A DNA stretch of 43,908 nucleotides from Candidatus Beckwithbacteria bacterium (GTDB taxonomy: Bacteria; Patescibacteriota; Microgenomatia; UBA1400; CG1-02-47-37), in the NCBI GenBank assembly GCA_026397255.1, contig JAPLVF010000001.1, positions 1-43,908 of the forward strand, given 5' to 3'. The number at the start of each line of letters is the position of its first letter. The first letter of the stretch is position 1. The position numbers and the translations under genes were made by a program. Under the pieces are notes generated by a model, which saw only the letters and a program-made list of their open reading frames with translations, was not told the origin of the DNA and did no database searches. This document shows positions 12,033 through 38,134 of the stretch, in pieces.

Positions 12033-14495
12033 ATGAATTTTGATCATCAGAAAATCGAGGAAAAGTGGCGGAAAAAGTGGCGGGAGACAGGGATTTATAG
12101 GACTAATTTATCCATTCGACAAGCTCAGGACAAAAAAAAGTGGTACAACCTAATGATGTTTCCGTACCCGTCGGCCGAAGGCTTGCATGTCGGTAACATG
12201 TATGCGTTTACCGGGGCGGATTGTTACGGCCGGTTTAAGGCGATGCAGGGATACGAGGTATTTGAGCCGATTGGGTTGGACGGGTTCGGAATCCACTCGG
12301 AAAATTACGCGATTAAAATCGGCAAACACCCAGCCGATCAGGCCAAAATCAGTGAAAAACATTTTTATGAGCAGTTAAGCCGGATTGGCAACCGTTTTAA
12401 CTGGGATAACCGTTTGGAAACTTACGATCCGGAATATTACCGCTGGACTCAGTGGCTGTTTGTACAAATGTTCAAGCACGGCTTGGCATACCGGAAAAAA
12501 GCTCAGGTTAACTGGTGTCCGTCCTGTAAAACCGTCTTAGCCGATGAGCAGGTGATTGATGGTAAGTGTGAAAGGTGCAGTACGGCAGTCGGGAAGCGGG
12601 AGAACGAACAGTGGTTTTTTAAGATTACAGAGTACGCGCAGAGATTATTGGATAATATTGAAAAAATTGATTGGCCGGAAAAGATTAAAATCAGCCAGAG
12701 AAATTGGATTGGTCGTAGCGAGGGCGTAGAGATTATTTGGAAAATGACAAGGTTCGACCTTGTCATCAGCACTTTTACTACCAGGCCGGACACGATTTAC
12801 GGGGCAACATTTTTAGTTTTAGCGCCGGAGCTGGCGTTGGTGAATAAATTGAAATTAAATAAAGCAGCAAAGGAGTATGTGGCGAAAGCGTTATTAAAAA
12901 CCGAACAGCAACGGAAGTTGGAAGAAAAGAAAAAAACCGGTGTCGATACTGGTTATCAAGTGGTCCATCCTTTGACGGGAAAGCCGATTCCTGTCTGGAT
13001 TGCCGATTTTGTGCTGAAAGACTACGGTACGGGTGCGGTAATGGGGGTGCCGGCGCATGATGAAAGAGACAACGATTTTGCTAAAGAACATCAATTACCG
13101 GTGATAGATATTTTGAAAGATAAAGAGGAGATAATTAGGAAATTAGAGAAAAAAGGTTTGGTAAAAAGAACGGTAAATTTTCATTTAAGGGATTGGTGTA
13201 TTTCCAGGCAAAGATATTGGGGGCCGCCGATTCCGATGATTTATTGTGAAGAGTGTGCTAAAAGAAACACTCCGGAGAGTAAAAATATTCCACTCCGGAG
13301 TGGAATGGCTGGCTGGTATCCGGAAAAAGAGGAGAATTTGCCGGTTAAACTGCCGTATGTCCAAGATTTTAAGCCGACCGGAGACGGGAGAGCGCCTTTG
13401 GCTAAGGCCCCACGGGGGTGGTTAGAAACAGTTTGTCCTGGTTGCGGAGGGAAAGCAAAGAGAGAAATAGATGTGTCTGATACGTTTTTAGATAGTGCCT
13501 GGTATTTTTTGAGGTATCCTTCGGTTTCCAATAAGGAGACTCCTCGTAGGAAGCCTACGAGGAGTCTCCTTGCAGGTACTGACGAGCTTCGTTTGCCTTT
13601 TGATCCGGAAATTACGAAAAACTGGTTGCCGGTAGATGCGTATATTGGTGGAGCCGAGCATGCGGTCCTACATTTGCTTTATTCGAGATTTGTCTGGATG
13701 GCGCTCTCGGATTGGGGCTATATCCCTAAAGCCCTAGGCCCTGAGCCCTTCCCATTCCTGTACGGCCACGGTTTGATTATCAGAAACGGCGCCAAGATGA
13801 GCAAAAGCCGGGGCAATATTGTCAACCCGGACGAATATATTGATAAGTTCGGGGCGGATGCTTTAAGAATGTATTTGATGTTTATCGGGCCGTATGATCA
13901 GGGCGGGGATTTTAAAGATACGGGGATAGTGGGGATGAAGCGGTTTTTGAATCGGGTGTGGAATCTGTGTTCCACTCCCGGTGTGAAAGATGTCCACACA
14001 CCGGGAGTGTTATTGCTGCGACACAAAACCGTTAAAAAACTGACCGAGGCAATGGAGAATTTTCGGTTTAATGTGGGAATTGCCAATATTATGGAGTATG
14101 TTAATGGGCTGGAGAAATATTTCACTCCCGGAGTGAAAGAAGTCTCCACTCCGGGAGTGGATTCGATTAAAACTTTAATTTTGTTGCTGGCGCCGTTCGC
14201 GCCGTATATTAGTGAAGAACTATGGGGGAAAATCGGCGGAAAATTCAGCGTCCATCAGCAACTTTATCCTAAATACGAGGAAAAATTGACGAAAAATGAG
14301 ACAGTTACGGTGGTGGTGCAGGTAAATGGCAAGTTGCGGGGAAGACTAGAATTGGGAGCAGAAGAGGGGAAAAATAAAGAAAAAGTATTAACTTTAGCCA
14401 AAGCCGATGAGCATATAAAACAGTATCTTAAAGATAAAAAAATTGTTAAAGAAATTTTTGTTCCCGGGAAACTGGTGAATTTGGTGGTAAAATAA
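12033..14495 (+). CDS. leuS: Leucyl-tRNA synthetase with six palindrome-encoded insertions
   Basis: This 820-aa class I synthetase charges tRNA-Leu. The HIGH motif is HVGN at residues 52-55 (YPSAEGLHVGNM), KMSKS is at 588-592, and the editing domain has TTRPDTIYGATF and DYGTGAVMGVPAHDERD. Two Cys pairs (CPSCK, CERC) lie in the first zinc-like module and CPGCGG in a later one. Six stretches are encoded by hairpin repeats and look inserted relative to usual sequences: SIRQAQDK, MTRFDLVIS, NTPESKNIPLRSG, KETPRRKPTRSLL, STPGVKDVHTPGV and FTPGVKEVSTPGV. All keep the reading frame, and the signature motifs remain intact, so the enzyme is expected to be active. ATG 12033 fits the usual N-terminus (FDHQKIEEKWRKKW) better than the upstream start at 12015. 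Confidence 0.95.
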   Translation: MNFDHQKIEEKWRKKWRETGIYRTNLSIRQAQDKKKWYNLMMFPYPSAEGLHVGNMYAFTGADCYGRFKAMQGYEVFEPIGLDGFGIHSENYAIKIGKHPADQAKISEKHFYEQLSRIGNRFNWDNRLETYDPEYYRWTQWLFVQMFKHGLAYRKKAQVNWCPSCKTVLADEQVIDGKCERCSTAVGKRENEQWFFKITEYAQRLLDNIEKIDWPEKIKISQRNWIGRSEGVEIIWKMTRFDLVISTFTTRPDTIYGATFLVLAPELALVNKLKLNKAAKEYVAKALLKTEQQRKLEEKKKTGVDTGYQVVHPLTGKPIPVWIADFVLKDYGTGAVMGVPAHDERDNDFAKEHQLPVIDILKDKEEIIRKLEKKGLVKRTVNFHLRDWCISRQRYWGPPIPMIYCEECAKRNTPESKNIPLRSGMAGWYPEKEENLPVKLPYVQDFKPTGDGRAPLAKAPRGWLETVCPGCGGKAKREIDVSDTFLDSAWYFLRYPSVSNKETPRRKPTRSLLAGTDELRLPFDPEITKNWLPVDAYIGGAEHAVLHLLYSRFVWMALSDWGYIPKALGPEPFPFLYGHGLIIRNGAKMSKSRGNIVNPDEYIDKFGADALRMYLMFIGPYDQGGDFKDTGIVGMKRFLNRVWNLCSTPGVKDVHTPGVLLLRHKTVKKLTEAMENFRFNVGIANIMEYVNGLEKYFTPGVKEVSTPGVDSIKTLILLLAPFAPYISEELWGKIGGKFSVHQQLYPKYEEKLTKNETVTVVVQVNGKLRGRLELGAEEGKNKEKVLTLAKADEHIKQYLKDKKIVKEIFVPGKLVNLVVK
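12115..12131. repeat. Family C repeat in leuS
   Basis: TTCGACAAGCTCAGGAC encodes part of SIRQAQDK near the synthetase N-terminus. A related sequence (TTCGACTCCGCTCAGGAC) lies in comEA at 14661. Confidence 0.65.
12744..12766. repeat. Family B-like palindrome in leuS editing domain
   Basis: Ten-base arms ATGACAAGGT and ACCTTGTCAT pair perfectly around TCG. It encodes MTRFDLVI just before the STFTTRPDT motif of the editing domain. Confidence 0.85.
13268..13306. repeat. Palindrome pair in leuS (A-like)
   Basis: CACTCCGGAG occurs at 13268 and 13291. The second copy is part of the perfect 20-mer ATTCCACTCCGGAGTGGAAT (13287-13306). It encodes NTPESKNIPLRSG between two conserved parts of the synthetase. 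Confidence 0.8.
13533..13571. repeat. Family H hairpin in leuS
   Basis: An 18-bp perfect stem (AAGGAGACTCCTCGTAGG and its complement) closes on the 3-nt loop AAG. The 39 nt add 13 codons between the RYPSVSN and LPFDPEI segments of the synthetase. A 36-nt relative lies in argS. Confidence 0.9.
13973..14009 (+). repeat. Family A hairpin, copy 3 (leuS)
   Basis: Arms CACTCCCGGTGTG and CACACCGGGAGTG (13 bp, perfect) flank loop AAAGATGTCCA. It encodes STPGVKDVHTPGV. Confidence 0.9.
14123..14159 (+). repeat. Family A hairpin, copy 4 (leuS)
   Basis: Arms CACTCCCGGAGTG and CACTCCGGGAGTG (13 bp, perfect) flank loop AAAGAAGTCTC. It encodes FTPGVKEVSTPGV, 38 codons after copy 3. Confidence 0.9.
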
Positions 14496-14501
14496 TTTTT
14501 A

Positions 14502-21604: not shown

Positions 21605-22618
21605 ATGAAGTCTGTCAGTGTGGTGATGCCGGCTTTTAACAGCATCAGAACGATTGAGGTGTGTTTAAAAAGCATTCGGGAGCAGGATTATGGCGGTAAA
21701 GTGGAGATTGTGGTGGCGGACGGCGGGTCGACTGACGGGACTTTGGCAGTGTTAAAGAAGTATGGCTGCAAGGTGGTGGCAGAGAGGACTGGTAATCCGG
21801 AAAAAGCTAAGGCGATTGGATTGAAAGAGGCAAAAGAGGAGTTCGTGTTGTTGATGGCTTCAGATAATGTGCTGCCGGATAAATTATGGCTAAAAATAAT
21901 GGTTGTTAGTTTGTTAAAAGAGCCGGAAGCAGTGGCCGCTTATCCGTGGCACTATGCTTATCGAAAAACCGACACCAGCTTAAATCGCTATTTTGCTTTG
22001 ATGGGGGTGAATGATCCGGTAGCGAAGTTTATGGGTAAAGCCGACCGGCAGGGTTGGGGTGGAAATGGGTGGCGGTTAAGCGGTGCAGCTGAAGATAAAG
22101 GCGGTTATTGGTTGGTGCGGTTTACCGCCAAAGATATGCCGACGCTGGGGGACAACGGGATTTTGGTGTGGAAAGATAAGTTGGTGAAAGCAAAAGTTGA
22201 CGAAAAATATTTTTCCCACATTGATGTGTTTTATGATCTTGTAAGTTTAGGAATGAACCAGTTTGTAGTAGTTAAAAATGAGATTGTTCATGATACTGGG
22301 GAAAAGTGCTTTAAGTTTTTAAGCAAGCGGTTTCGGTATATGAAAGAGTTATATTTGAGTCAACGAAACATGAGAAGATTTAAATGGGTAAGAAGTTGGC
22401 GGGATAAAGCAAGGTTGGGTTTGTCTGTCGTCTATAGCTTGACTTTGGTTGGTCCGACACTGGAAGCAGCTTGGGGGTTTATGGTTAAGCCGGATTTAGC
22501 CTGGTTTTGGCATCCGGTTATGAGTGTTGCGATGGTTTTTGTCTACGGAAAGCCAGTTCTTATAAGGCTTATATTTCAATTTTTTCGTGTTGGCGATCAG
22601 AGTAAGGTCCTTGCTTAA
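21605..22618 (+). CDS. GT2 family glycosyltransferase
   Basis: This 337-aa enzyme shows VSVVMPAFNSIRTIEVCLKS, IVVADGGSTDGTLAVLKKYG and LLMASDNVLPDKLWL, the GT-A nucleotide-binding and metal-site order. A C-terminal hydrophobic region includes PVMSVAMVFVYGKPVLIRLI. The DxD position reads ASDN, so the metal site is slightly atypical. Its 3' end overlaps the convergent cupin gene by 50 nt. Sugar and acceptor unknown. Confidence 0.82.
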   Translation: MKSVSVVMPAFNSIRTIEVCLKSIREQDYGGKVEIVVADGGSTDGTLAVLKKYGCKVVAERTGNPEKAKAIGLKEAKEEFVLLMASDNVLPDKLWLKIMVVSLLKEPEAVAAYPWHYAYRKTDTSLNRYFALMGVNDPVAKFMGKADRQGWGGNGWRLSGAAEDKGGYWLVRFTAKDMPTLGDNGILVWKDKLVKAKVDEKYFSHIDVFYDLVSLGMNQFVVVKNEIVHDTGEKCFKFLSKRFRYMKELYLSQRNMRRFKWVRSWRDKARLGLSVVYSLTLVGPTLEAAWGFMVKPDLAWFWHPVMSVAMVFVYGKPVLIRLIFQFFRVGDQSKVLA

Positions 22619-22976
22619 TCGTAATGAGTTTAGTCGGCTTTAAGAATTTAAAACCATGGCCGCCACAGAACTGCAACAAACAGTCGCCGGGGTTAAGAAT
22701 GTGTTTTACAAAGGTCCGTCCTTTGTAAAAGAAAGTGGCCTCAATTTGGCCGGAAACCAGATAAATAAACTCCTGATTTTTATGAGTGGTTTTGGCCAGG
22801 CGTCGGTGTTGGTGGGGTTTAACTTGGCGGCCTTTAGGGTAGAAGTTAACTCCCAGCTGTAAAGGGTTATCTGGTTTGGTTAAGAACTGGTGGGGTTTGG
22901 CTTTAAAGTTAGCTTTAATGATAAGAGCTAGGGTGGTTTTTCCGAACTTGATGTTAATTAAATTGTTAGGCATCAT
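22569..22976 (-). CDS. Small cupin-domain protein
   Basis: This 135-aa single-cupin protein has the metal-site-like PHQHRRLAKTTHKNQEFIYL, followed by VSGQIEATFF and NPGDCLLQFCGGHGFKFL. Relatives in glycan clusters are sugar-nucleotide or polysaccharide-modifying cupins, but the substrate cannot be told. The segment YKGRTFVKH between two strands is encoded by a family B palindrome (compare YKGPSFVN in ComEA). It overlaps the upstream gene by 11 nt. Confidence 0.65.
   Translation of the reverse strand: MMPNNLINIKFGKTTLALIIKANFKAKPHQFLTKPDNPLQLGVNFYPKGRQVKPHQHRRLAKTTHKNQEFIYLVSGQIEATFFYKGRTFVKHILNPGDCLLQFCGGHGFKFLKPTKLITIKQGPYSDRQHEKIEI
22704..22730. repeat. Family B palindrome in cupin gene
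   Basis: The core ACAAAGGTCCGTCCTTTGT (22708-22726) is identical to the copy next to the transposase. It is extended by TTTT and AAAA to a 27-nt near-perfect inverted repeat. Confidence 0.9.
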
Positions 22977-25050: not shown

Positions 25051-25057
25051 GAAATTT

Positions 25058-25072: not shown

Positions 25073-25081
25073 AGTCATCAG

Positions 25082-25813
25082 ATGAAATTGTCAGTAATTA
25101 TTTGCACCAGTGGCCGGCCGAAAGATTTGGAAGGGTGTTTAACCAGTTTAAAGCAGCAAAGTTTTAAGGATTTAGAAACAGTGATTGTGAGAGATTCGCC
25201 GTTGGTGAAAGCCAGAGACTTGGGTTGGCGGAAAGCTAAGGGTGAAGTGGTGGCTTGGATTGATGATGATGTAATTTTGGCTAAAGATTGGGCCAGAAAT
25301 TTAGTTAAAATTTTTGATAACAATAAGGAAGTGGGTGGTGTCAGCGGTCCGACAATAGTTCCGGAAGATTTATTAAAAAACCGGTTGGTATTTTGGTGGT
25401 ATGGTAAAAAAAATTGGCTGGTGAAGTTATGGGTGAAACTGGTTTTAGATAATCAACCGTTGGCAGTGGGTAAAATCACTAAAATTGGCTGGTGGTCGCC
25501 GGGATCAAATTTTAAGAGTTGTTTAAGACTAAAAGGTTTACAAGAAGTTGATTATTTAGAAGCTTGCAATATGAGTTTAAGGCGAGAGTTGGTGAAGGAG
25601 GCGGACGGATTTGATTTAGATTATCAGGGTACGAGCGAGTGGTGTGAAGTGGATTTGGCGATGAAGATAAAAAAATTGGGCTACCGATTAGTGTGGAGCA
25701 GGCAGGTGAGGTTAGAGCATCAGGTATCCAGAAGCGGAGCGTTTATTAAGCGGAAAAATTGGGGAGAGAGAATCAGAAATTACTTAAGATTCAGGCAAAA
25801 ATGGTTACACTAA
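25082..25813 (+). CDS. GT2 family glycosyltransferase
   Basis: This 243-aa enzyme starts KLSVIICTSGRPKDLEGCLT, with VVAWIDDDVILAKDWARN (DDD metal site) and EACNMSLRRELVKEADGFDL, then GTSEWCEVDLAMKIKKLGYR. ATG 25082 is the start that gives the canonical N-terminal strand. First of a seven-gene plus-strand run of glycan genes with gaps of 1-3 nt or short overlaps. Confidence 0.82.
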   Translation: MKLSVIICTSGRPKDLEGCLTSLKQQSFKDLETVIVRDSPLVKARDLGWRKAKGEVVAWIDDDVILAKDWARNLVKIFDNNKEVGGVSGPTIVPEDLLKNRLVFWWYGKKNWLVKLWVKLVLDNQPLAVGKITKIGWWSPGSNFKSCLRLKGLQEVDYLEACNMSLRRELVKEADGFDLDYQGTSEWCEVDLAMKIKKLGYRLVWSRQVRLEHQVSRSGAFIKRKNWGERIRNYLRFRQKWLH

Positions 25814-25814
25814 T

Positions 25815-26723: not shown

Positions 26724-27382
26724 TGAACTTTGATCAGGCGACTAATTTATGGCGGGGGGTAGAAGTGGCGTTGTTAAAGCAAAATTGGGGAAAATATTTT
26801 AAAGGTAAGATTTTGGATTTAGGCTGCGGTGAGGGGGAGATTGCCAGGCAAGTATTTGGTAGAAAAATTGAGTGGGGGTTGGACAATGATTTAGTGATGG
26901 TGAGAAAAGCGAAACAATCAGGAATGTATAACCAAGTATTGTTGGGGGATGCGAGGAAAATAGCCTTAGCTAGCGGCAGAGCGGATTTAGTTTTTAGCAA
27001 TAGCGTGATTGAGCATATTCAGAATTTAGACAAAGTTTTACCGGAAATTAACCGGGTTTTAAGACAGGGCGGGCTATTAGTGGCGACGATGCCCAGCGAT
27101 TGTCTGGGAGAATATTTAGGGCGGGGAGAGTGGTATGCTCGCTGGTTTAACCGAAAATATCAGCACTATAATTTATTGAGTAAAGAAAAATGGATAGAAA
27201 TGTTAAAAATAATAAGATTTAAGTTAATCGACGGCTATTATTATTTAGATAAACAGACAATTCACCAATGGCATAAGTTATTATGGGGGAATAAATTAGG
27301 GATAAAATTAAAAGTCAAACCAGTCAAACCAGAAAGGTTAAAAATTGGGGCTGGGATAGCGATTTTAGCGCAAAAGATATGA
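26723..27382 (+). CDS. SAM-dependent methyltransferase (class I)
   Basis: This 219-aa protein has motif I ILDLGCGEGEIARQVFG, the acidic loop GLDNDLVMVRKA, motif II-like ADLVFSNSVIEHIQNLDKVL and VLRQGGLLVATMPSD, as in class I methyltransferases of the UbiE/Methyltransf_11 type. It starts at ATG 26723 after GAGGGG; the longer frame upstream lies inside the previous gene. It probably methylates a sugar or lipid of the surface glycan (inference from neighbours). Confidence 0.8.
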   Translation: MNFDQATNLWRGVEVALLKQNWGKYFKGKILDLGCGEGEIARQVFGRKIEWGLDNDLVMVRKAKQSGMYNQVLLGDARKIALASGRADLVFSNSVIEHIQNLDKVLPEINRVLRQGGLLVATMPSDCLGEYLGRGEWYARWFNRKYQHYNLLSKEKWIEMLKIIRFKLIDGYYYLDKQTIHQWHKLLWGNKLGIKLKVKPVKPERLKIGAGIAILAQKI

Positions 27383-28152
27383 AAATATCGGTGATTGTTG
27401 TTAATTTCAACGGTAAAAATTATATTGCCGACTGTCTTGATTCAGTTTTAAAAACGGATTTTAATGATTTCGAAATTGTGGTGGTGGAAAATGGGTCCAA
27501 TGACGGCAGTTGGCAGTTACTTAACAAAAAATATAAAAAAATACGGTTGGTGAAGTTAATAAAATCTTCAGAAAATTTATTTTTTACCGGCGGCGGTAAT
27601 TTAGGGGCAAAAAAAGCTAAGGGTGAATGGCTGGTATTTTTAAATGCTGATACAGTGGCAGATAAAAACTGGTTAAAAGAAATGGTTAAGCTGGTCAAAC
27701 ACAAACGACTCATTCAGCCAAAGATTAAGATTTATCAGACTAATAAGATTGATTGTGTTTGGGGAGATTATCTTTGGCCGGGTTGGGGCAGGGCGCATGG
27801 CCGGGGGGAGACAGATAAAGGACAGTATGAAGTAAATCGCCAAGCAGATTATGCTAATGGTACTTGTTTAATGATAGAGAAAAAGTTTTTCTTGGAGTTA
27901 GGCGGGTTTGATGAGAATTTCAAGTTTTTTTACGAAGATGTGGATTTGAATTTACGGGCCAGAAAACAAGGCGGCCAGGCTTGGTATGGCGCTAAAGCAA
28001 TGATTTGGCACAAAGGCTCCTTGTCATTTAAGCAGAATGTGGCGTCAGAGACGGTGCAATATTATTACCACAGGAACAGAAAGTTAACGGTGATGAAAAA
28101 CTTTAAGGGAATTGACAGGCGGATAAGATTAGCGGTTTTAGGATTAGTATAA
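27379..28152 (+). CDS. GT2 family glycosyltransferase (rhamnosyltransferase-like)
   Basis: This 257-aa enzyme has KISVIVVNFNGKNYIADCLD, FEIVVVENGSNDGSWQLL, WLVFLNADTVADKNWL (NAD metal site), YANGTCLMIEKKFFLELGGF and FKFFYEDVDLNLRARKQGGQ. It overlaps the methyltransferase gene by 4 nt (ATGA). It is shorter than typical rhamnosyltransferases (about 300 aa), but all catalytic motifs are present. Confidence 0.85.
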   Translation: MKISVIVVNFNGKNYIADCLDSVLKTDFNDFEIVVVENGSNDGSWQLLNKKYKKIRLVKLIKSSENLFFTGGGNLGAKKAKGEWLVFLNADTVADKNWLKEMVKLVKHKRLIQPKIKIYQTNKIDCVWGDYLWPGWGRAHGRGETDKGQYEVNRQADYANGTCLMIEKKFFLELGGFDENFKFFYEDVDLNLRARKQGGQAWYGAKAMIWHKGSLSFKQNVASETVQYYYHRNRKLTVMKNFKGIDRRIRLAVLGLV

Positions 28153-28155
28153 GAT

Positions 28156-29334
28156 ATGAAAAAGATAGCTTTTATTACCCCTTTTTATTTACCGGTTAAA
28201 TTGTCTGGTTCGGGAAGATTGGTTCAAGGGATAGCGGAGGGATTAGTGGAAAAAGGGTTTGACTGCAAAGTGATTACGGCTGATGGCTGGACGACGAGAT
28301 CTTGGTATTTGCCTTTTGGACAGCGACTGCAGGAAAAACAGGATGAGTTTAAAGGAGTTAAGGTAGAGCGCTTAAAGTGTGGCTGGTGGCTGTCTTTAGC
28401 GAGCTTGATAACTCAGTTTAAGTTCCAAGCCTGCGGGCCGAATTTATTGGGGTTAGCTGATGTTTTTAAAAAAGAAAAGTTTGATATCGTCTGGGTGGTC
28501 CCTTTTCCGGCTTATTTGAACTGGCTGGTGGTGAAGGCGATTGATCAGCTTAAATTTAAGCCGCGTTTGGTAGTTACTCCCTGTTTTCATGAAGCATTGA
28601 GAGAGTATTATCATCCAGCCTTGAGGCAAGTTTTACAGCGGGCGGATATGGTGCAGGCCTTGACCGGGGCGGAGAAAGAGCTTTTGGTGAAACAGTTTGG
28701 ATTGCCGGAGAGCAAGATAAAAACGGAACCCGGATTTTTAGCGGATATCACAGTCAGGAAAAAGGAGTGGCAACAGTTGGCGGTTGAGTTTAAAGCCAAA
28801 CATGATTTAACGGGGAAAAAAACAGTGCTGTTTATCGGCAGTAAGATTGAGGAGAAAGGATTAGCTGTTTTAGCTCAGGCAGTAGGACAGTTATGGCAGG
28901 AAGATGATAGTTATAGATTGGTGACTGTGGGAAGTAAGACGGCTTTTTGGCAGCGGTATAAGAAAAAACACCAGTGGAAATTTTTGGTAGACTTGGATGA
29001 TGTCAGTGAGCAGGAGAAAGAAGCAATTTTGTCGGCGGCGGATGTTTTTTGTTTGCCGTCACGGGTGGAGTCGTTTGGATTGGTATACTTGGAAGCCTGG
29101 CTTAAGAAAAAGCCAGTAATCGGGGCCGACATTGGCCCGGTCAGGGAGTTGATCAAGGGGGCTAAAGGCGGCAGATTGGTTAAATTCGGAAGAGTGCGTG
29201 AGCTGGCAGCGGAGATTGACCGATTGGTAAAAGATAGAAATTTAGCCGGAAGATTAGGGGAGAATGGTTATAAAGCTTTAAAAATAAGGTATAGTAAAAA
29301 AATAGTTTTATCTCAGCTGGAAAAGATTTTATGA
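28156..29334 (+). CDS. GT4 family glycosyltransferase
   Basis: This 392-aa GT-B enzyme has an N-terminal acceptor domain (PFYLPVKLSGSGRLVQGIAE) and a C-terminal GT4 domain (about 215-390) with KKTVLFIGSKIEEKGLAVLA and ADVFCLPSRVESFGLVYLEA, WLKKKPVIGADIGP, the E-x7-E nucleotide-sugar motif. It ends in a 4-nt overlap with the flippase gene. It is the only clear GT-B enzyme of the cluster. Confidence 0.88.
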   Translation: MKKIAFITPFYLPVKLSGSGRLVQGIAEGLVEKGFDCKVITADGWTTRSWYLPFGQRLQEKQDEFKGVKVERLKCGWWLSLASLITQFKFQACGPNLLGLADVFKKEKFDIVWVVPFPAYLNWLVVKAIDQLKFKPRLVVTPCFHEALREYYHPALRQVLQRADMVQALTGAEKELLVKQFGLPESKIKTEPGFLADITVRKKEWQQLAVEFKAKHDLTGKKTVLFIGSKIEEKGLAVLAQAVGQLWQEDDSYRLVTVGSKTAFWQRYKKKHQWKFLVDLDDVSEQEKEAILSAADVFCLPSRVESFGLVYLEAWLKKKPVIGADIGPVRELIKGAKGGRLVKFGRVRELAAEIDRLVKDRNLAGRLGENGYKALKIRYSKKIVLSQLEKIL

Positions 29335-30605
29335 AGATTAAGCTTTGGTTATTTAATAATCTGACGACGAAGCAGACTGTGGTTAAAAATACGTTTTGGC
29401 TGATGTTAGCCGAAGTTGTTTCTAAAGCTCCAGTATTTTTTTTAAATATTTGGATAATTAGATATTTGGGGGCGGAGGATTATGGAAGACTTAGTTTTGT
29501 TTTTGCTTTTGGTTCTTTATTGGTAATTTTCACTGATTTGGGCTTGTCAACCTTAACGATCAGAGAGGTGGCGAAGAATAAAAGCTTAGCGAGAAAATAT
29601 ATCGATAATTTAATAGTCATTAAGTTAATTTTGAGCTTGGCTGTGTTAGGTTTGGTTTTCTTGTCAGTTAAGTTTTTAGGTAAATTTTCAGAGTTGATAA
29701 CTTTAGTTTTTTGGGTGACGATTTTTGTGACGATTACGTCTTTGACAACCTTTTTTCAAGCAATTTTTCAAGCTTTTGAAAAAATGGAATTTTTGGTTGT
29801 TTCTAAGATTGTTTATTCGCTTAGTCTGGTTTTAATTGTTTTTTACGTAGTTCAGCAGCAGTTGGGGATAGAGGGATTAACTAAAGGTTATGTTGTTGCC
29901 GCAGTTATTGCTCTTTTGGCGACGATGATTTTAACTAAAAAAAAGTTGGTTGAATTTTGGCCGGGGACAGATTTAACTTTTTTTCAAAAAAGTTTAAGGG
30001 AGGCATGGCCGTTTGCTCTTATCATTTTATTGGGTTCGATATATATGCAGATGAATACGATTCAATTAAAACTGCTTGCCGGAGATATTGAAGTTGGTTT
30101 GTATAATATCGCTTTTCAGTTAATTTTTGTGATGACTGTTTTGGGTGGCGTTTTTTTCAGCGCCTTATTTCCATCCTTAGCTAAAGAGTATGGAAAGTCA
30201 AAGATAGGTTTTTATAAATTGATTGATTTTTTTACCAAGTGGGTAATTTCGGGCGTATTAATATTTTGTTTGATCTTGTTTTTGATCAGCGGGAAGCTGT
30301 TTGTTTTATTGTATGGCCCGGATTATGTGAGAAGCATTAGCATGTTTCGTTTGTTATTAATTGCGTTTTTTATTTTATTTATTAACACGACTTATTCAGA
30401 AGCCTTAAAAACCATGAATTTACAGAAAGATTATTTGAAGGCCCTTTTTTGGGGATCTTTGTTAAATTTTTTACTTAATTTTGTTCTGATAGCTTGGTGG
30501 GGAGGAGTAGGGGCTTCATTAACAGCGATTTTATCATCTTCACTAATTACTATTTTGATAATAACGAAGTTTAGAAAGTTAAAACAAAGAGATTTGGCAA
30601 AATGA
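29331..30605 (+). CDS. Wzx-type oligosaccharide flippase
   Basis: This 424-aa protein has 12-13 membrane helices in the MOP/PST exporter pattern: NTFWLMLAEVVSKAPVFFLN, RYLGAEDYGRLSFVFAFGSL, TDLGLSTLTIREVAKNK near the N-terminus and NTIQLKLLAGDIEVGLYNIA in the middle. It would flip undecaprenyl-linked oligosaccharides made by the neighbouring transferases to the outer face. It overlaps the genes on both sides by 4 nt. Confidence 0.88.
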   Translation: MKIKLWLFNNLTTKQTVVKNTFWLMLAEVVSKAPVFFLNIWIIRYLGAEDYGRLSFVFAFGSLLVIFTDLGLSTLTIREVAKNKSLARKYIDNLIVIKLILSLAVLGLVFLSVKFLGKFSELITLVFWVTIFVTITSLTTFFQAIFQAFEKMEFLVVSKIVYSLSLVLIVFYVVQQQLGIEGLTKGYVVAAVIALLATMILTKKKLVEFWPGTDLTFFQKSLREAWPFALIILLGSIYMQMNTIQLKLLAGDIEVGLYNIAFQLIFVMTVLGGVFFSALFPSLAKEYGKSKIGFYKLIDFFTKWVISGVLIFCLILFLISGKLFVLLYGPDYVRSISMFRLLLIAFFILFINTTYSEALKTMNLQKDYLKALFWGSLLNFLLNFVLIAWWGGVGASLTAILSSSLITILIITKFRKLKQRDLAK

Positions 30606-31954
30606 AAATAAAGCTTTTATTCATAAACGCCATTGATACCAGTAGGTCAATCCAAACCTTGCTGCCGCCATTGGGACTGGGCTATCTGGCGAGCTCGTTG
30701 AGAGAGAATTTCCGTGAAGACAAGTGGCAATTTAAGATTATTAATCAGGATATTAGAGAAGAGATAGAAAAATTTAATCCTGATATCGTGGCGATTTCTT
30801 CAGTATCGCAAAATTACCAGAGGGCGGTAGAGTATGCAAAAATTGCTAAAGAATATCACCTGCCGGTTATCATCGGAGGGATCCATATTACAGTGATGCC
30901 TTCAACTTTAACTAAGGAGATGGATGTGGCGGTAATCGGGGAAGGGGAAGAAACGATTGTGGAGCTTTTTAAGCTTTATAAACAAAAAAGGAAATTTATT
31001 AAAAAAGATTTAAAAAAGATTAAAGGGCTTGCTTTTAAAGAAAGGAATCGGTTGGTGCTAACGCCAAGAAGGGAATTAATAGAACCTTTGAATAAGGTCC
31101 CTTTGCCGGCGAGAGATTTGATAACGATTGGTAATCCTACTTATATGTTTACTTCCAGAGGGTGTCCTTACAGGTGTACTTTTTGCGCTTCGTCCCGTTT
31201 TTGGGGCCGGGTGAGATTTTTTTCGGCAGAATATATGGTTAAGGAGATAAAGTATCTAGTTGAAAATTATGGGATAAACCGAATTGATTTTTGGGATGAT
31301 CTATTTATTGCCCACAGGCGAAGATTAAATGATTTACTACTACTGCTTAAAAAAGAGAAGCTGTTGGGTAAAGTGAGTTTTGGCTGTATGGTGAGATCTA
31401 ATTTAGTGGATGAGGGGTTAGCGAAGGTGTTAAAAAAACTGAATTTCACCAGGACATCCATGGGTTTGGAATCAGCTTCTCCCAGGATTCTTGAGTACTT
31501 GAAAGGTGAAACGATTAATGTGAAGAACCATGTTAATGCAATCAGAATTTTAAAAAAGTATGGCATCGAACCAAGCGCCTCTTTTATAATTGGTTCGCCA
31601 ACAGAAACCCGGGCGGATATTTTACAAACATTAAAATTTATCAAGAAAAGTCGATTGCGCGGGTTTGATATTTATGTTTTAGCGCCTTTGCCCGGAACGC
31701 CGGTTTGGGAATACGCGAAGAGCAAAGGTTTGGTGGGCGAAAAAATGGATTGGAGCAGGCTGGATGTGGACTTTTATCAGAATCATGACCGGACCGTAAT
31801 TTTGTCGGAAAAGTTAAGCAGAGATGAGTTATATAAATTGTTTTTGAAGTTTAAGCTGGAGCAAAAAAGACGGTTGGCAATGTATTTTATTAAAAATCCT
31901 TTAAAGATTCCTAAATATTTAATAGGAGTAATGGAAAGATTAATGTCTAATTAA
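30602..31954 (+). CDS. B12-binding-type radical SAM protein
   Basis: This 450-aa protein has an N-terminal cobalamin-binding-like Rossmann domain (about 1-140; LPPLGLGYLASSLREN, DIVAISSVSQNY, VIIGGIHITVMPS, AVIGEGEETIVEL) and a radical SAM barrel with the cluster motif SRGCPYRCTFCASS (CxxxCxxC), SMGLESASPRILEYL and SFIIGSPTET. Relatives perform methylations and other radical chemistry, many on lipids or antibiotics. The cobalamin-contacting DxHxxG motif is not evident, so cofactor use is uncertain. Product likely part of the envelope. Confidence 0.82.
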   Translation: MKIKLLFINAIDTSRSIQTLLPPLGLGYLASSLRENFREDKWQFKIINQDIREEIEKFNPDIVAISSVSQNYQRAVEYAKIAKEYHLPVIIGGIHITVMPSTLTKEMDVAVIGEGEETIVELFKLYKQKRKFIKKDLKKIKGLAFKERNRLVLTPRRELIEPLNKVPLPARDLITIGNPTYMFTSRGCPYRCTFCASSRFWGRVRFFSAEYMVKEIKYLVENYGINRIDFWDDLFIAHRRRLNDLLLLLKKEKLLGKVSFGCMVRSNLVDEGLAKVLKKLNFTRTSMGLESASPRILEYLKGETINVKNHVNAIRILKKYGIEPSASFIIGSPTETRADILQTLKFIKKSRLRGFDIYVLAPLPGTPVWEYAKSKGLVGEKMDWSRLDVDFYQNHDRTVILSEKLSRDELYKLFLKFKLEQKRRLAMYFIKNPLKIPKYLIGVMERLMSN

Positions 31955-33516
31955 TGAAAAAAAGGAATGTAGTATTAATAGCTCTTTATGACCTGAACTC
32001 GTTTCCAGTGTGCACCTTACATGCTTCTCTAAAAGAAGCGGGTTTTAGCGTTAATTCGATTTTCTTTAAACAACTAAATCCAAATAACACGATGGATTCT
32101 CCAACAACTAATGAAGTTAAAGCTCTTATTAAACTAATTAAAGACCTGGAGCCACTTTTTGTAGGCATTAGTGTTCGGTCCACCCTTTTTAAATTGGCTT
32201 CCAAAATAACTGAAGAAATAAAAAAGGAGGTTGATACTTTAGTGATATGGGGTGGAGTTCACCCTATAATTAGACCAATTCAAAGCATACAATTTACAGA
32301 TATTGTTTGTATTGGTGAAGGTGAAAAGGCAGTCGTGGAATTGGCAACAAAATTATCAAGCGGAGAAAAAATAGATAACATCCGAAATTTATGGATTAAA
32401 AAGAATGATAAAATTATTAAAAATGATTTGCGTTCTTTGATTCAAAATCTTGACTTGTTGCCCTTTCCTGACTTTTCAAATAAAAATAAGTTCTTGGTGG
32501 AAAACGGTAATGTACTTAATTTGCCAGACTCAGAGAAAAAAACATCATACTGGCTCATGACGTCAAGGGGTTGTCCATTTAATTGTGCTTACTGCAGTAA
32601 TAACATCTTGAGAATGACATATAAGGGCAAAGGAAAATATGTAAGGCGTAGGAGTGTTGAAGATGTTATTAAGGAGTTAGTTTATGCAAAAAGAAAATAC
32701 AAGAATGTAAGCTACATAGCTTTTGAAGATGATGTATTTACATTTGACATCAATTGGATAAGAAAATTTTGTTGCCAATATAAAAAAACGGTTAACCTAC
32801 CGTTTTTCTGCTATTGCCATCCAAAAATTACCAGTGAAGAAATGATACGACTTTTGAAAGATGCGGGAGCCAAGGATATGACAATGGGAATACAAACAGG
32901 TTCGGAGAAAATCAGACATAAATATTTCAAAAGATACGACACTAATGAAGACATCATAAGGGTGGGACAAATATTGCGAAAATATAAAATCAATTGCGCT
33001 TATGATGTGATAATGGATAATCCTTTGGAAACAAGCAAAGACAAGAGGGAGACATTTAATCTTTTATTGAAATTGCCAAAGCCTTTTGAGTTGCACACAC
33101 ATACGCTGACACATTTTCCAGAGACAGAACTCACAAATCTTCTTTTAGAGAAGAAAATGATTTCAGAAAACGAAGTTGAAGATCAAAAACAAGAATCGTA
33201 TAAGAGATGGACGCCGACTTTAGATTTGAGAAGAGATAATGATGACCTATTTTGGGACAACTTATACTATTTGGCTAAACAGAAATATGTGTCTCGAGAA
33301 TTTGTTATTTGGCTAAGCCATAACAGTTTAATAAAAAAGCATTCTAAACGATTAACTTTGTTGTTAAGATTGATGAGCGCCAATATTTATACTATTAGAC
33401 GCGGTTCAAAAATAGATACGGCAAGATGGTACATCATCTCTAGTTTGCTAAAGATTCCTAAATATTTGTTTCAGCGCTTGCAAGCAAAGATTCCCTCAAG
33501 AACTCCGCGGGTGTAG
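31954..33516 (+). CDS. B12-binding-type radical SAM protein, codon use unlike neighbours
   Basis: This 520-aa protein has a B12-binding-like N-terminal domain (IWGGVHPIIRPIQ, VCIGEGEKAVVELATKL) and the radical SAM motif TSRGCPFNCAYCSNN (CxxxCxxC), then AFEDDVFTFD and MGIQTGSEKIRHKYFKRY. It starts at the last base of the previous stop. Its sequence is more A+T-rich and less biased toward the TTAG/CCGG-rich wording of its neighbours, and it carries none of the palindromes, suggesting more recent acquisition (inference). Its 3' end overlaps the convergent GT2 gene by 46 nt. Confidence 0.82.
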   Translation: MKKRNVVLIALYDLNSFPVCTLHASLKEAGFSVNSIFFKQLNPNNTMDSPTTNEVKALIKLIKDLEPLFVGISVRSTLFKLASKITEEIKKEVDTLVIWGGVHPIIRPIQSIQFTDIVCIGEGEKAVVELATKLSSGEKIDNIRNLWIKKNDKIIKNDLRSLIQNLDLLPFPDFSNKNKFLVENGNVLNLPDSEKKTSYWLMTSRGCPFNCAYCSNNILRMTYKGKGKYVRRRSVEDVIKELVYAKRKYKNVSYIAFEDDVFTFDINWIRKFCCQYKKTVNLPFFCYCHPKITSEEMIRLLKDAGAKDMTMGIQTGSEKIRHKYFKRYDTNEDIIRVGQILRKYKINCAYDVIMDNPLETSKDKRETFNLLLKLPKPFELHTHTLTHFPETELTNLLLEKKMISENEVEDQKQESYKRWTPTLDLRRDNDDLFWDNLYYLAKQKYVSREFVIWLSHNSLIKKHSKRLTLLLRLMSANIYTIRRGSKIDTARWYIISSLLKIPKYLFQRLQAKIPSRTPRV

Positions 33517-34358
33517 CTTTTCCAGAGAGCGTAATTTTTTTTCACTAGCAGATAACCAAAGAAATATACTGGGAAGATAAAGATAAAATAATTAAGCAGG
33601 AAAAATAATAATTGAAAGGAGTTGGCATGTTTGAATTCAAACCAAAAAAGATTTCTGGTGTAGTAATAGACGGGTGATGTTTTTTTGATGGTTTGGCCCA
33701 ATTTGTGGTAAATGACCGACCGAGGGACATAGAGGATAAGAAAGCCGGCTGTTTTTACCCTGAGGCACCAGTCGGCATCCTCGAAGACGCAAAAGAACCT
33801 TTTATCTAAAAGACCGATTTTTTTGACCACTGCTGTTTTGATTAAAAGGCAAGCGCCGGTGACAAAATCAACGGCCTGGGGGCGGTTATTTTTTTGTTTG
33901 ACCAGAGAAATTTTACCTAAGGAAAGATTTATCATTGATCCGATTGATTGGATGACCTTTGTTTTACCCCGGCGGCGGTAATAATAGATTTTGGGGCCCA
34001 GGGCACCGCTGTTTTGGTAATTTTGGGCGGTTTCGACTAAGTGATTGAGGAAGTTTTTGGTCACAACGGTATCGTTGTTTAAAAGCAAAATATAATCGCT
34101 TTGGCCCTGTTTTAAGATTCGTCTGATGGCCACATTATTTCCTTCGGCAAAACCAAGATTGGTTTTATTTTTCAGAATGTATAGCGAGGGGAATTTTTGC
34201 CTGATCTTGAAAATATCTTCAGCCTGGGAACCGTTATCGACCACAACAATTTCATAATTTGGATAGGTAATTTTGGATAATGATGTTAAGCATTCAAGAG
34301 TATCTTTTAAACCGTTCCAATTAAGAATAATAATGGAGATTTTTGGTTGCTGGGTCAT
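33471..34358 (-). CDS. GT2 family glycosyltransferase (rhamnosyltransferase-like)
   Basis: This 295-aa enzyme has ISIIILNWNGLKDTLECLTS, YEIVVVDNGSQAEDIFKI, TNLGFAEGNNVAIRRIL, YILLLNNDTVVTKNFL (NND metal site), FVTGACLLIKTAVVKKIG and FFCVFEDADWCLRVKTAGFL. A C-terminal hydrophobic helix (LLFFLLNYFIFIFPVYFFGY) attaches it to the membrane. Last of a three-gene minus-strand unit linked by two 4-nt overlaps. Confidence 0.85.
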   Translation of the reverse strand: MTQQPKISIIILNWNGLKDTLECLTSLSKITYPNYEIVVVDNGSQAEDIFKIRQKFPSLYILKNKTNLGFAEGNNVAIRRILKQGQSDYILLLNNDTVVTKNFLNHLVETAQNYQNSGALGPKIYYYRRRGKTKVIQSIGSMINLSLGKISLVKQKNNRPQAVDFVTGACLLIKTAVVKKIGLLDKRFFCVFEDADWCLRVKTAGFLILYVPRSVIYHKLGQTIKKTSPVYYYTRNLFWFEFKHANSFQLLFFLLNYFIFIFPVYFFGYLLVKKNYALWKSYTRGVLEGIFACKR

Positions 34359-35032
34359 AGTTGAGCGACGATAATGAATTGGGCGCAGAAAAGCGAAGGC
34401 GATAATTTGGTGAGTTGATAAAGCAATGTTTTTAGTATTTTAATCTTTAGAACCCTGCCTTTTAAAAAGAAGAACTCAAATCCGGGAGAATAATCGAGAG
34501 CAAGGATTTTCAGGCCGGCATCAGCCACCAGTTTTTGGCTGGTTTTACGAGTGAAGAAACGAACATGGGAGTCGTCCATAATGCCGTCTTTTTGATAATA
34601 GAATCTGCCTAAGAGTAAATTCCATCTGATTTTAATATTGGCAATGTTGGGGATTGATAAGATGAAAATTCCGTTATTTTTTAGAAAGGGTTTAAGTTTT
34701 TTTAAGACCGCTAACGGATCGAATAAATGTTCTAAAATATCGGCGCAGATAATAACATCAAATGACTTTTGGGGGAAAGGCAGACGATCAGTTTCAATGT
34801 TTAAAGTAAAAGCTTGATCGAGATTTTTTTGGGCTTGGGTAATGGCTTGACTGGAGATATCAATAGCAAAGACAACGGCCTGTTTATGCTGTTTAAGGTA
34901 TTTTCCCAGGGTGCCTTCACAACAGCCAACATCAAGAATTTTTTTATTAAAATCAACGTATTTAATGATCGATTCGTTTAAACCGTTTTTATAAAGGCGG
35001 GTTTTGTGGTTAAATAATTGGTTTAGTTTCAT
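34355..35032 (-). CDS. SAM-dependent methyltransferase (class I)
   Basis: This 225-aa protein has ILDVGCCEGTLGKYLKQHKQ, VVFAIDISSQAITQAQ, FDVIICADILEHLFDPLAVL and KNNGIFILSIPNIANIKIRW, a typical Methyltransf_11/23 pattern. The GxCxEG variant of motif I (GCCEG) is still compatible with SAM binding. It overlaps both neighbours by 4 nt and probably acts on the same glycan or lipid product as the radical SAM protein upstream. Confidence 0.82.
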   Translation of the reverse strand: MKLNQLFNHKTRLYKNGLNESIIKYVDFNKKILDVGCCEGTLGKYLKQHKQAVVFAIDISSQAITQAQKNLDQAFTLNIETDRLPFPQKSFDVIICADILEHLFDPLAVLKKLKPFLKNNGIFILSIPNIANIKIRWNLLLGRFYYQKDGIMDDSHVRFFTRKTSQKLVADAGLKILALDYSPGFEFFFLKGRVLKIKILKTLLYQLTKLSPSLFCAQFIIVAQL

Positions 35033-36429
35033 GAGAAATCCAGCAGCTGGCCGATGAATTTTTGGGTCGATCTAAATAAGAATTTAAGATCAGATAGGCT
35101 GCGGATAGAAAGGATTTTTCTGAAAATGAATGCCGGAGTCAGGCAATTTAAGTAAATATTCCGGGTGAGGGCCATTAATTTTTTGTCAGGAATCGGCGAT
35201 TTTAAAATCGGTTGGGACATGTCGTATTTATTCCAGTCCAGGGTTTTGAGCCAGTGATTTTTCTTGGCCTGTTTGAACAATTTAGTCCCGGGATAGGGGA
35301 TAATAATTGTTGCCTGAAGAGAGTTAATTAAGCTTTTTTTAAAGAGATTTTTGGTAAAGTTAACGGTTTTTTGCGCGTCAGCCAGAGTTTCCCAGGGATA
35401 ACCGACCATACAGGTGACGTGGGGTTCTAACTGGCCGCCAGCGGCTTTAATAAGTTTTAATTCTGGTTCAACCTGGTTAATTTTAATGCCTTTGTTTAAG
35501 CGGTTGAGGGTAATTTGGTTGGCGGATTCCAAACCAAAAAGCAAGAAACGAAAGTTGGCTTTGGCCATCAGTTGATAGTCTTTAGCGGTTAAAATCCCGA
35601 AGCGCAGATTACAGCCGAAAGCGATTTTTTTATAATAGCCGCGCTTGATCATGCCCTGGCAAAATTGAGTTAGCCAACTGCCAACCATAAAGGTGCCGCT
35701 GTCATCAAAAACTTCTTTAATTCCCAGTTTGATGAGTTGGCCGATTTCGTCTAAAAGATTGTTTGCTGTCCGGACCATAAAGTTAGGGAAGAGGGTGGTC
35801 CAGGAGCAAAAAGTACAGCCGCCATTCCGGCGCCACCAACAGTCACGGCCGGCCATAGTGTAAGTTCCCGGGGTATATTTAAAATTGCCGTTTTTGTAGG
35901 CATATAATTGCCATTTGGTTAATTTCCGGTCAATAAAGGGGAGCGCATTAAGGTCAGACCTTTCTGAAGATTTAACCTTTAAGGTCGGACCTTTTACGAT
36001 AGCCAGTAAAGATAAATCATAGTAACCACCGTGAATCAGGTAATCGACCGGGCAGTTGATTTTGGTTTCATCAGGGAGGGCAGTCACATGGTCGCCGGCA
36101 ATGGCAATCTTCATTTTTGGCAGGGATTTTTTCAACTCCTTAATAATCTGCCAATGTTGTTTGATAACCGGGGTTTTGGTTTCAATAAATAACAGGTCCA
36201 GTTGGCTGCTTTTCAGCTGGTTAAACCAGTGTTCATAGGTCCAGTTTTCAGCAATGCCATCGAGCCAAATCACTTCGTGGCCGTGTTTGTTTAACAGAGT
36301 GGCAGCGGAGGCCGGGATAAGCGGATAGATATAAGTGGGGGATTTAAACCATTGAAACTGGCGGTTTTGGGACAATAAAGGGGTGCCTTTTGGTGATTTT
36401 AAGGGCGGATAACCGATGCAGATTTTCAT
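35029..36429 (-). CDS. B12-binding-type radical SAM protein with atypical cluster spacing
   Basis: This 466-aa protein has a B12-binding-like N-terminal region (PLIPASAATLLNKHGHEVIW, KMKIAIAGDHVTALPDE) and a radical SAM domain whose cysteines read GRDCWWRRNGGCTFCSW, giving C-x7-C-x2-C instead of C-x3-C-x2-C. LLFGLESANQITLNRLNKGI and TCMVGYPWETLADAQKTVNF follow. A repeat pair encodes VKGPTLKVKSSERSDLNA between the two domains. The unusual cysteine spacing suggests a distinct subfamily; I cannot name its reaction. Confidence 0.8.
   Translation of the reverse strand: MKICIGYPPLKSPKGTPLLSQNRQFQWFKSPTYIYPLIPASAATLLNKHGHEVIWLDGIAENWTYEHWFNQLKSSQLDLLFIETKTPVIKQHWQIIKELKKSLPKMKIAIAGDHVTALPDETKINCPVDYLIHGGYYDLSLLAIVKGPTLKVKSSERSDLNALPFIDRKLTKWQLYAYKNGNFKYTPGTYTMAGRDCWWRRNGGCTFCSWTTLFPNFMVRTANNLLDEIGQLIKLGIKEVFDDSGTFMVGSWLTQFCQGMIKRGYYKKIAFGCNLRFGILTAKDYQLMAKANFRFLLFGLESANQITLNRLNKGIKINQVEPELKLIKAAGGQLEPHVTCMVGYPWETLADAQKTVNFTKNLFKKSLINSLQATIIIPYPGTKLFKQAKKNHWLKTLDWNKYDMSQPILKSPIPDKKLMALTRNIYLNCLTPAFIFRKILSIRSLSDLKFLFRSTQKFIGQLLDFS
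35950..35993. repeat. Family B palindrome pair in radical SAM gene
   Basis: AAGGTCAGACCTT (35950-35962) and AAGGTCGGACCTT (35981-35993) are 18 nt apart. They encode the linker between the N-terminal and radical SAM domains, as the comEA pair encodes a linker. Confidence 0.85.
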
Positions 36430-36454
36430 ATAGTTAATTTAACCTAAAATAAGG

Positions 36455-36460
36455 TAAAAT
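36455..36460 (+). promoter_or_regulatory. -10 box of argS, probably leaderless
   Basis: GG precedes TAAAAT, and the ATG of argS follows 9 nt later without a Shine-Dalgarno sequence. The same wording GGTAAAAT precedes the antitoxin gene at 4910. Confidence 0.4.
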
Positions 36461-36469
36461 GGAATAACA

Positions 36470-38134
36470 ATGAGACAAATTATTGAGCAAACGATTAAAA
36501 AAGTTTTAAAAGAATTGGGAGTAAAACCGGTTAAGTTTTCTGTGGAGCACCCGGAAAATATGGCTTGGGGAGATTACACGACTAATGTGGGGATAATTAC
36601 CCATAAAGCCGAGGAAATTGGCGCCAAATTAAAAGCCGAAGAAAGCCTGAATAAAATCGCTTCAAAAATTGAGGTAAAAGGGGCTGGTTTTATTAATATA
36701 TCAATCAAATCAGATGCTCTTGTCAGTCAAGTTAATCAAGTGCTAAAAGGCAATTGGGAAAAACCATTACTGGGAAAGAAAATCAGCGTTGAATATACTG
36801 ACCCGAATCCATTTAAGGAGTTTCACTTGGGCCATTTGTACTCTAATTTAATCGGTGAAGCAATTGCCAAGATTTTTGAAGCTAGCGGGGTGACGGTCTG
36901 GCGGGGGAATTTTTACGGTGATGTGGGAATGCACGTGGCCAAATCCGTCTGGGGAATGCAGCAAAAGCTGACCAAAGAGAAAATTGCGATTAAGGATTTG
37001 GAGAAAAAATCAATCAAAGACAGGCAGAATTTTTTGGGGCAGGGATATGCTTTGGGGGTAAGGGCGTTTGAAGAAGATGAAAAGATAAAAAAAGAAATTA
37101 CCGAGCTGAATAAAAAAATTTATGACAAAGATGAGTCGGTGAAAGAAATTTATGAAGCGGGCTTAAGTTGGTCTTTGGAATATTTTGAAACTTATTACAA
37201 AAGGCTGGGAACCAAATTTGACGGTTATTATCCGGAGTCTAAGGTGGCGGTTTTGGGTAAAAAATTAGTGGAGAAAGGTTTGAAAAAAGGCGTGTTAGAA
37301 AAAAGCGAGGGAGCGGTGGTGTTTAAGGGCGAAAAATATGGCTTACATACCCGGGTATTTTTAAATAAGTTTGGTTTGCCGACCTATGAAGCCAAGGATT
37401 TAGGTTTGGCCCAGGCGAAATACCAGGATTTTAAGTATGACCGGTCGTTAAATGTTTTCGGCAAGGAAATTGACGAGTATTACCGGGTGGTGAAAAAAAC
37501 CTTGGAATTAATCGAACCGGAATTGGGGAAAAAGGCCGAGTGGTTGGCCCACGGCATGGTGAAATTACCAGAGGGGAAAATGTCGTCACGGTCGGGGAAT
37601 GTAATTACCGCCGATTGGCTGTTAAACGAAGCCAAAGGCTTGATCCAGAAAAACTTTAAATGTGATGATGAAGTGGCTGAACAGATCGGCCTGGGAGCGG
37701 TGAAATATGCCTTATTAAAGTCGGGAATTGGCCAGGATGTGATTTTTGACTTTGCCAAGTCAATTAGTTTTGAGGGCAATAGCGGGCCATATTTGCAGTA
37801 TACCTACGCAAGAGCGCGAAGTGTTCTCAAGAAAGCGCACCTGCAAGGAGACTCCTCGCAGGTCTGCGAGGAGTCTCCTTATTGTAATCAAGAAGAAGAG
37901 ATTCTACTGCGGAGCTTGGTGCGGTTTGAGGAAACTATTGTCCAGGCGGCCGAAGAGTTGGCGCCGGACGTGGTGGCGAAATTTTTATATGATCTGGCCC
38001 AAAAATTTAACAGTTTTTACAACAAACACCGGGTGATCGGTAATGATTTTCGGTTGTGGCTGACGAGCGCGACGGGGGAGATTTTAAAGAAAGGATTAGG
38101 ATTATTGGGGATCAGTGCGCCGGAGAAGATGTAG
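36470..38134 (+). CDS. argS: Arginyl-tRNA synthetase with one hairpin-encoded insertion
   Basis: This 554-aa class I synthetase has an N-terminal Add1-like domain (SVEHPENMAWGDYTTNVGII), the HIGH motif as HLGH at residues 119-122 (VEYTDPNPFKEFHLGH), GDVGMHVAK, and the KMSKS-type loop KMSSR at 370-374 (LPEGKMSSRSGNVI), followed by the anticodon-binding DALR domain to the C-terminus. A 36-nt hairpin adds 12 codons (roughly GDSSQVCEESPY) at about residues 460-471, near the start of the DALR domain. The gene for tRNA-Arg(CCT) lies 5.6 kb downstream. Confidence 0.95.
   Translation: MRQIIEQTIKKVLKELGVKPVKFSVEHPENMAWGDYTTNVGIITHKAEEIGAKLKAEESLNKIASKIEVKGAGFINISIKSDALVSQVNQVLKGNWEKPLLGKKISVEYTDPNPFKEFHLGHLYSNLIGEAIAKIFEASGVTVWRGNFYGDVGMHVAKSVWGMQQKLTKEKIAIKDLEKKSIKDRQNFLGQGYALGVRAFEEDEKIKKEITELNKKIYDKDESVKEIYEAGLSWSLEYFETYYKRLGTKFDGYYPESKVAVLGKKLVEKGLKKGVLEKSEGAVVFKGEKYGLHTRVFLNKFGLPTYEAKDLGLAQAKYQDFKYDRSLNVFGKEIDEYYRVVKKTLELIEPELGKKAEWLAHGMVKLPEGKMSSRSGNVITADWLLNEAKGLIQKNFKCDDEVAEQIGLGAVKYALLKSGIGQDVIFDFAKSISFEGNSGPYLQYTYARARSVLKKAHLQGDSSQVCEESPYCNQEEEILLRSLVRFEETIVQAAEELAPDVVAKFLYDLAQKFNSFYNKHRVIGNDFRLWLTSATGEILKKGLGLLGISAPEKM
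37845..37880. repeat. Family H hairpin in argS
   Basis: A 17-bp perfect stem (AAGGAGACTCCTCGCAG and complement) has a 2-nt loop. It is the same element as in leuS (13533-13571) but translated in a different reading frame. Confidence 0.9.

Follow-up and report, generated by a model that had tools for sequence, protein, structure and literature searches.

REPs are extragenic by name, and Rickettsia palindromic elements (RPEs) are palindromes of ~100 to 150 nt that are inserted in frame, within a reduced genome, into many protein-coding genes and have no known cognate transposase. REPINs and RAYTs are established systems, according to the accessible text of two reports (PMC3116915, PMC2817692). 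The accessible part of the paper by Di Nocera et al. 2013 places most REPs in intergenic DNA and notes intragenic REP units as well, equates some RPEs to CGTC REPs, and describes TIRYTs, a kind of tyrosine transposase whose flanking repeats are untagged, in some cases self-complementary, and also present as dispersed copies (PMC3733652). Syntenic RAYTs of related strains were found to be flanked by different REP classes, as given in the available text of Nunvar et al. 2013, indicating joint turnover of the palindrome and its RAYT (PMC3686654). TnpA-Y1 class 2.6 and class 3 proteins have been described as RAYT-like, with palindromes that are without GT[AG]G; no mention of candidate phyla or of intragenic copies was found in the accessible text of that report (Quentin et al. 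2018, PMC6006769).

We analyzed a window of 43,908 nt, which is contig C1 of a ~0.9-Mb genome of the candidate phyla radiation (Candidatus Beckwithbacteria; 19 contigs, all joined for analysis; here called G000). Its leuS and argS genes contain long hairpins that we read, with a probability of about 0.87, as copies of a short, nonautonomous mobile element that is REPIN-like and mobilized by RAYTs. The elements work like REPINs, yet they are not classical GTAG REPs, as the GTAG tag and the extragenic place are both missing. As in REPINs, an inverted pair of short palindromes makes one long hairpin, singlets occur too, cognate tyrosine transposase genes are flanked by the palindrome, and several families are present per genome. 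However, known REPINs are extragenic, mostly longer, and have longer spacers, whereas the elements here are mostly intragenic, have spacers of 2 to 18 nt, and have their palindrome also within the transposase ORF. They share with RPEs the in-frame position in numerous protein-coding genes and the reduced host genome, but RPEs are longer and have no known transposase, whereas each family here has one in G000 or a relative. The RAYT-like proteins and the palindromes without a GTAG guide liken them, by description only, to classes 2.6 and 3 as presented in the accessible text on those classes (PMC6006769).

The gene for leucyl-tRNA synthetase, leuS (12033 to 14495, plus strand; assigned by homology to solved LeuRS structures), hosts five separate palindromic elements, and the gene for arginyl-tRNA synthetase, argS (36470 to 38134, plus strand; TIGR00456, 350 bits, above cut-off), hosts one. 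An inverted-repeat scan of the window recovered, as its top two inverted repeats, the perfect hairpins that a first-pass annotation had described in these genes: one in leuS (13533 to 13571) with 18-bp arms and a 3-nt loop and one in argS (37845 to 37880) with 17-bp arms and a 2-nt loop, both 100% complementary. The chance expectation for perfect arms of at least 17 bp with a loop of at most 10 nt is ~5e-5 per 44 kb, and inverted repeats with a score of at least 14 numbered 11 in the real genome versus 0 in a dinucleotide-shuffled genome. When folded as single-stranded DNA, the leuS and argS hairpins gave z values of −8.1 and −7.6, respectively, against shuffles. The encoded peptides, KETPRRKPTRSLL in leuS and GDSSQVCEESP in argS, are as annotated and are read in different frames. 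The annotated lengths of 39 and 36 nt are right for the hairpins alone; the full homologous units exceed them, with 49 nt in leuS (13529 to 13577, plus strand) and 46 nt in argS (37839 to 37884, minus strand).

Each long hairpin consists of two copies, in inverted order, of a ~23-nt palindromic unit, CCTGCAAGGAGACTCCTCGCAGG, which defines family H. The leuS doublet reads CAATAAGGAGACTCCTCGTAGG-AAG-CCTACGAGGAGTCTCCTTGCAGGT, and the argS doublet has the opposite orientation and is without the 3-nt spacer. The layout of the unit is CCTGC-A-AGGA-GAC-TCCT-C-GCAGG, and a lone unit folds into a hairpin with one mid-stem mismatch, resembling the mid-stem bulge that the accessible text of an earlier report describes for E. 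coli REPs (PMC8266576). One unit carries a variant left end, CAATAAGG, in both doublets, and a TCCAATAAGG or TCCATTAAGG left edge also precedes doublets of other palindrome families. Doublets of different stem families were seen to have the left edge TCCA(A/T)TAAGG in common, at window position 39306, at C7:13869 and C9:24608, and further at C13:297048, 297584, 305083, and 306277; it is possibly a recognition or boundary tag that replaces GTAG.

A single strict pattern covering both hairpins exactly gave zero matches because the spacers differ. Searching the whole genome for the 17-mer arm, as the first-pass annotation had proposed, yielded four further copies of family H, all singlets (C6:47775, C11:73981, C14:30056, and C19:1346). 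These are found in genes of cobA type and glmU-like type, at the topA end, and just outside a gene. The special link to aminoacyl-tRNA synthetases that had been suggested is not supported, with the other family H copies in unrelated genes and enrichment unsupported over all families: only leuS, argS, and pheT were synthetase genes among ~28 identified host genes (p ~0.1). For family H alone, two of five host genes encode synthetases (p ~0.015), which is too few to weigh; both p values assume that synthetases make up an estimated 4% of the genome.

A census by family cores found ~80 palindromic elements of several families in G000, with 55 of the 80 lying in ORFs, spread over 43 genes, although greedy ORF calling makes this coding share approximate. 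Among the identified hosts are tsaD, miaA, uppS, topA, a guaB-like gene, secA, radA, uvrC, pheT, and gdhA, as well as a thiamine pyrophosphokinase gene and several glycosyltransferase genes. Besides the family H doublet, leuS hosts an AAGG-type palindrome (ACAAGGTTCGACCTTGT, 12749 to 12761), a CACTCC-type palindrome pair (13268 to 13302), and two CACTCC-type inverted doublets (13973 to 14009 and 14123 to 14159), all on the plus strand. Elsewhere in the window, a doublet of the palindrome family of the window's own transposase lies in a comEA-like gene (14895 to 14935, plus strand). Without a given strand are an extra copy of that transposase's palindrome in a 135-aa ORF (22705 to 22729), an AAGG-type doublet in a B12/radical SAM gene (35950 to 35993), an R2-type doublet, TCCAATAAGGTCTCTCC...GGAGAGAACCTGTAGGA, in a 391-aa ORF (39306 to 39353), whose architecture is like that of family H, and, within a short ORF (1668 to 1731), an AAGG-type palindrome beside a CACTCC-type doublet. 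Stop-codon avoidance in the palindromes was weak and is a hint only, with a mean of 5.0 of 6 frames open versus 4.57 in arm shuffles (p = 0.009). Runs of the nonamer TATAANNNT (family D1) were also observed, at window positions 4813, 9509, and 10292. The same assembly contains a second leuS-like gene that is 42% identical (C8:7380-9632), which could be a contaminating contig (assembly contamination, 2.1%) or a true second copy.

G000 encodes six Y1_Tnp genes (PF01797, all above cut-off), for all of which the sole family match was NF047646, the REP-associated tyrosine transposase, at 35 to 56 bits against an equivalog cut-off of 80. Each of these six RAYT-like genes (families R1 to R6) has a palindrome of its own at both flanks. 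The one in the window, a RAYT-like Y1 HUH transposase gene (MPAKN...MPNHFHLL...YIHLN; 19242 to 19913, minus strand), matched PF01797 at 52.8 bits and NF047646 with an E value of 4e-11, under the equivalog cut-off, and its palindromes lie at 19924 to 19948 in the 5′ flank and at 19211 to 19235 in the 3′ flank, both on the minus strand. A sequence search of the PDB with the transposase returned no relative. Across the order, 42 of 88 genomes had a Y1_Tnp match, and 65 RAYT-like genes were examined for flanking palindromes. The PNHxH and Y(I/V)(H/Q)xN motifs were present in all 65, and a 19-nt palindrome was common to both flanks in 51; these include 32 clearly distinct palindromes, and only 1 of the 51 has a GT(A/G)G tetranucleotide beside it. 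H-type palindromes with up to 3 mismatches were found in 13 other genomes of the order, whereas the reversed control pattern was found in none; in G047, such palindromes (2 to 3 mismatches) flank a RAYT and occur twice within the RAYT gene. No RAYT flanked by exactly the family H palindrome was found in the G000 assembly, so we infer the mobilizer of family H from relatives. An H-type palindrome was also seen within argS of G030 (C13:15456, L144), apparently at another site in that gene.

A reading as a mobile element, already favored in the first-pass annotation, is supported by the dispersed copies, their occurrence in both orientations and in different frames, a palindrome class that flanks RAYT genes, and the absence of the palindrome from most homologous argS and leuS loops. 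The family palindromes would serve RAYT-type Y1 HUH transposases as terminal recognition hairpins, with every transposase lineage having its own palindrome, short copies of which would scatter over the genome. The RAYT may bind the hairpin in single-stranded DNA, cut it, and rejoin it. Copies that are out of frame or in the folded cores of essential genes would be purged, leaving in-frame copies in loops, and resident copies may later be replaced once the palindrome of the transposase changes.

Short copies could also arise as MITE-like (PATE-like) derivatives of an ordinary IS200/IS605-type insertion sequence, i.e., as its internally deleted ends, and the palindrome at both ends of each Y1 gene, the several Y1 genes per genome, and two CACACC palindromes of G000 that are separated by 252 nt with no gene between them (C13:121779/122031) would fit this origin. 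We regard it as unlikely, since the REP-associated subfamily is the only one matched by the six genes, and since the copies scattered over the genome are hairpins, either single or paired in inverted order, with no fusions of a left end and a right end. Moreover, an R4-type RAYT gene occupies one conserved chromosomal locus in G000, G001, and G003, as domesticated RAYTs do, which is unusual for mobile insertion sequences; these orthologous RAYTs form one clade (support, 99/97). We give very little credence to a selected functional RNA or DNA structure in synthetase genes, acting, e.g., in translation pausing or in the regulation of aminoacyl-tRNA synthetases. Such a role would agree with both window hosts being synthetase genes and both hairpins being very stable, but family H is also present in the cobA-type gene, the glmU-like gene, and elsewhere, orientation and frame are not constant, most homologues are without the hairpin, and other palindrome families are likewise found in dozens of unrelated genes.

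The gene's own flank palindrome, identical at a minimum of 15 of 19 positions, was contained in frame in 34 of the 51 RAYT genes, whereas palindromes of other RAYTs reached 15 of 19 in 0 of 499 cross-control trials. Counted from the RAYT start, the in-gene palindrome is nearly always located at ~+150 to +185, at ~+443 to +501, or at both, and a protein alignment showed both sites to be variable loops. The internal palindromes are identical or nearly so within one gene and unrelated between genes (L140, L167, L208, L212, L262, and others). An in-frame copy of the own palindrome at one or two fixed internal sites appears to be a new pattern; in the accessible portion of the open-access literature, no report of RAYT ORFs with a palindrome at fixed internal sites was found.

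The hairpin loops of argS and leuS were compared with those of relatives, which belong to the same order but to other genera. The homologous loops are empty in most relatives; a few hold another palindrome or a repeat, and the argS loop of family H has other palindromes in G001, G018, and G028. The claim of the first-pass annotation that the DNA palindrome rather than the peptide is conserved agrees with this distribution, with the two orientations, and with the different frames. None of the homologues compared had the same peptide at the same position, and a conserved synthetase peptide is thereby rejected. The relatives' argS and leuS loops include some with tandem repeats, e.g., CGAAGCACGAAGCACGAA or CTCGAAACTCGAAA, and not palindromes (L071, L083, L085, L114, and L116).

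Gene slots were then compared with G002, into ~62% of which 26 element sites of G000 were mappable, with 623 positions in the same genes serving as controls. A strong inverted repeat was present at the slot in G002 for 8 of the 26 element sites versus 9 of the 623 controls (p = 4e-8; 5e-7 without one paralogue); because proteins of the two genomes are ~60% identical, slot matching is precise to within a few codons rather than to the single base. The eight include argS, which has a tandem-type repeat in G002, not a REP-like palindrome, and two more occupied slots were found by eye in cobA (family H in G000) and at tsaD 842-908. Occupied slots also include those of the two CACTCC-type doublets in leuS. 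The slot palindromes often differ between the two genomes; at the family H slot of leuS, for instance, G002 has a different 16-bp palindrome, AAGGACAGTCTTCC...GGAAAGACTGTCCTT, with near copies elsewhere in G002.

The slots in gdhA (C6:43863) and tsaD (C12:665) were compared with L292, L293, L272, and L273. The gdhA slot holds GTAAGGTACGGTACCTTAC in G000, GGAAGGGTCCGACCCTTCC in G001, and GGAAGGATCGGATCCTTCC in G003, each being the palindrome of a RAYT of that same genome, and the tsaD slot in G000 and G001 likewise holds the palindrome of the own genome's RAYT. The three gdhA palindromes have a common frame and register, TG-N-AAGG...CCTT. The element-bearing gdhA of G000 is no longer than its element-free relatives, so simple insertion does not account for every copy, and replacement is possible. 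Other copies in G001 are without a partner in G000, indicating that gain or loss happens too.

This slot pattern looks like turnover in place, the mechanism of which we infer. We tentatively propose, at somewhat less than even odds, that RAYT-family palindromes of this order are rewritten in place, such that once the recognition palindrome of a transposase drifts, the copies at fixed sites, in its own gene and in unrelated essential genes, become converted to the altered sequence. If this is true, the palindrome and the specificity of the transposase evolve in concert genome-wide, with protein loops being altered as a by-product. Repeated independent insertion into a few tolerant loops, with no replacement in place, has a substantial chance of its own, a little below one-half, of explaining the slot pattern; it opposes only the last step, replacement, and not the mobile-element reading. 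It would suit the coincidence of slots with modeled coils and the acceptance by the same loops of unrelated tandem repeats and even a hydrolase-like domain (L128), but it does not easily explain why the gdhA palindromes of G000, G001, and G003 keep frame and register, why those of G001 and G003 differ at the same two paired stem positions as their RAYT flanks, or why, among orthologues that occupy one locus, the in-RAYT copy changes in the same way and at the same position.

Different palindromes at orthologous slots look to be a new pattern as well, no report of palindrome turnover at orthologous coding sites having been found in the open-access literature, as far as its accessible text goes. 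GTAG/CGTC REPs and TIRYTs are alike in having intragenic units and untagged flanking repeats with dispersed copies, but the accessible part of that work yielded neither fixed internal transposase sites nor turnover at orthologous coding sites (PMC3733652). In comparison with the turnover at syntenic RAYTs presented in the available text of Nunvar et al. 2013, turnover here also occurs at orthologous positions in unrelated protein-coding genes (PMC3686654). Palindromes specific to a RAYT, at fixed sites within its gene and at orthologous sites elsewhere, would offer a direct handle on the joint change in specificity of a domesticated transposase and its scattered targets.

In AlphaFold models, the argS element forms a coil at residues 456 to 473 between two helices, with a pLDDT near 64. 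The leuS model has a pLDDT of <50 at residues 416 to 421, encoded by the CACTCC-type pair at 13268, at residues 502 to 519, which are the family H insert, and at residues 699 to 704, encoded by the doublet at 14123, such that three of its four lowest-confidence stretches are palindrome encoded. Judged from model confidence and secondary structure, the inserts probably lengthen surface-type loops. In this reduced genome, REP-like palindromes rank among the main origins of in-frame loop insertions into essential genes, which would account for odd lineage-specific loops in proteins of the candidate phyla radiation. As a separate observation, leuS of G008 (L128; ORF of 1,092 aa) has an in-frame domain of ~170 to 180 aa at the same slot as the palindrome at window position 13268, and this inserted domain resembles an alpha/beta hydrolase (GHSLGG motif).
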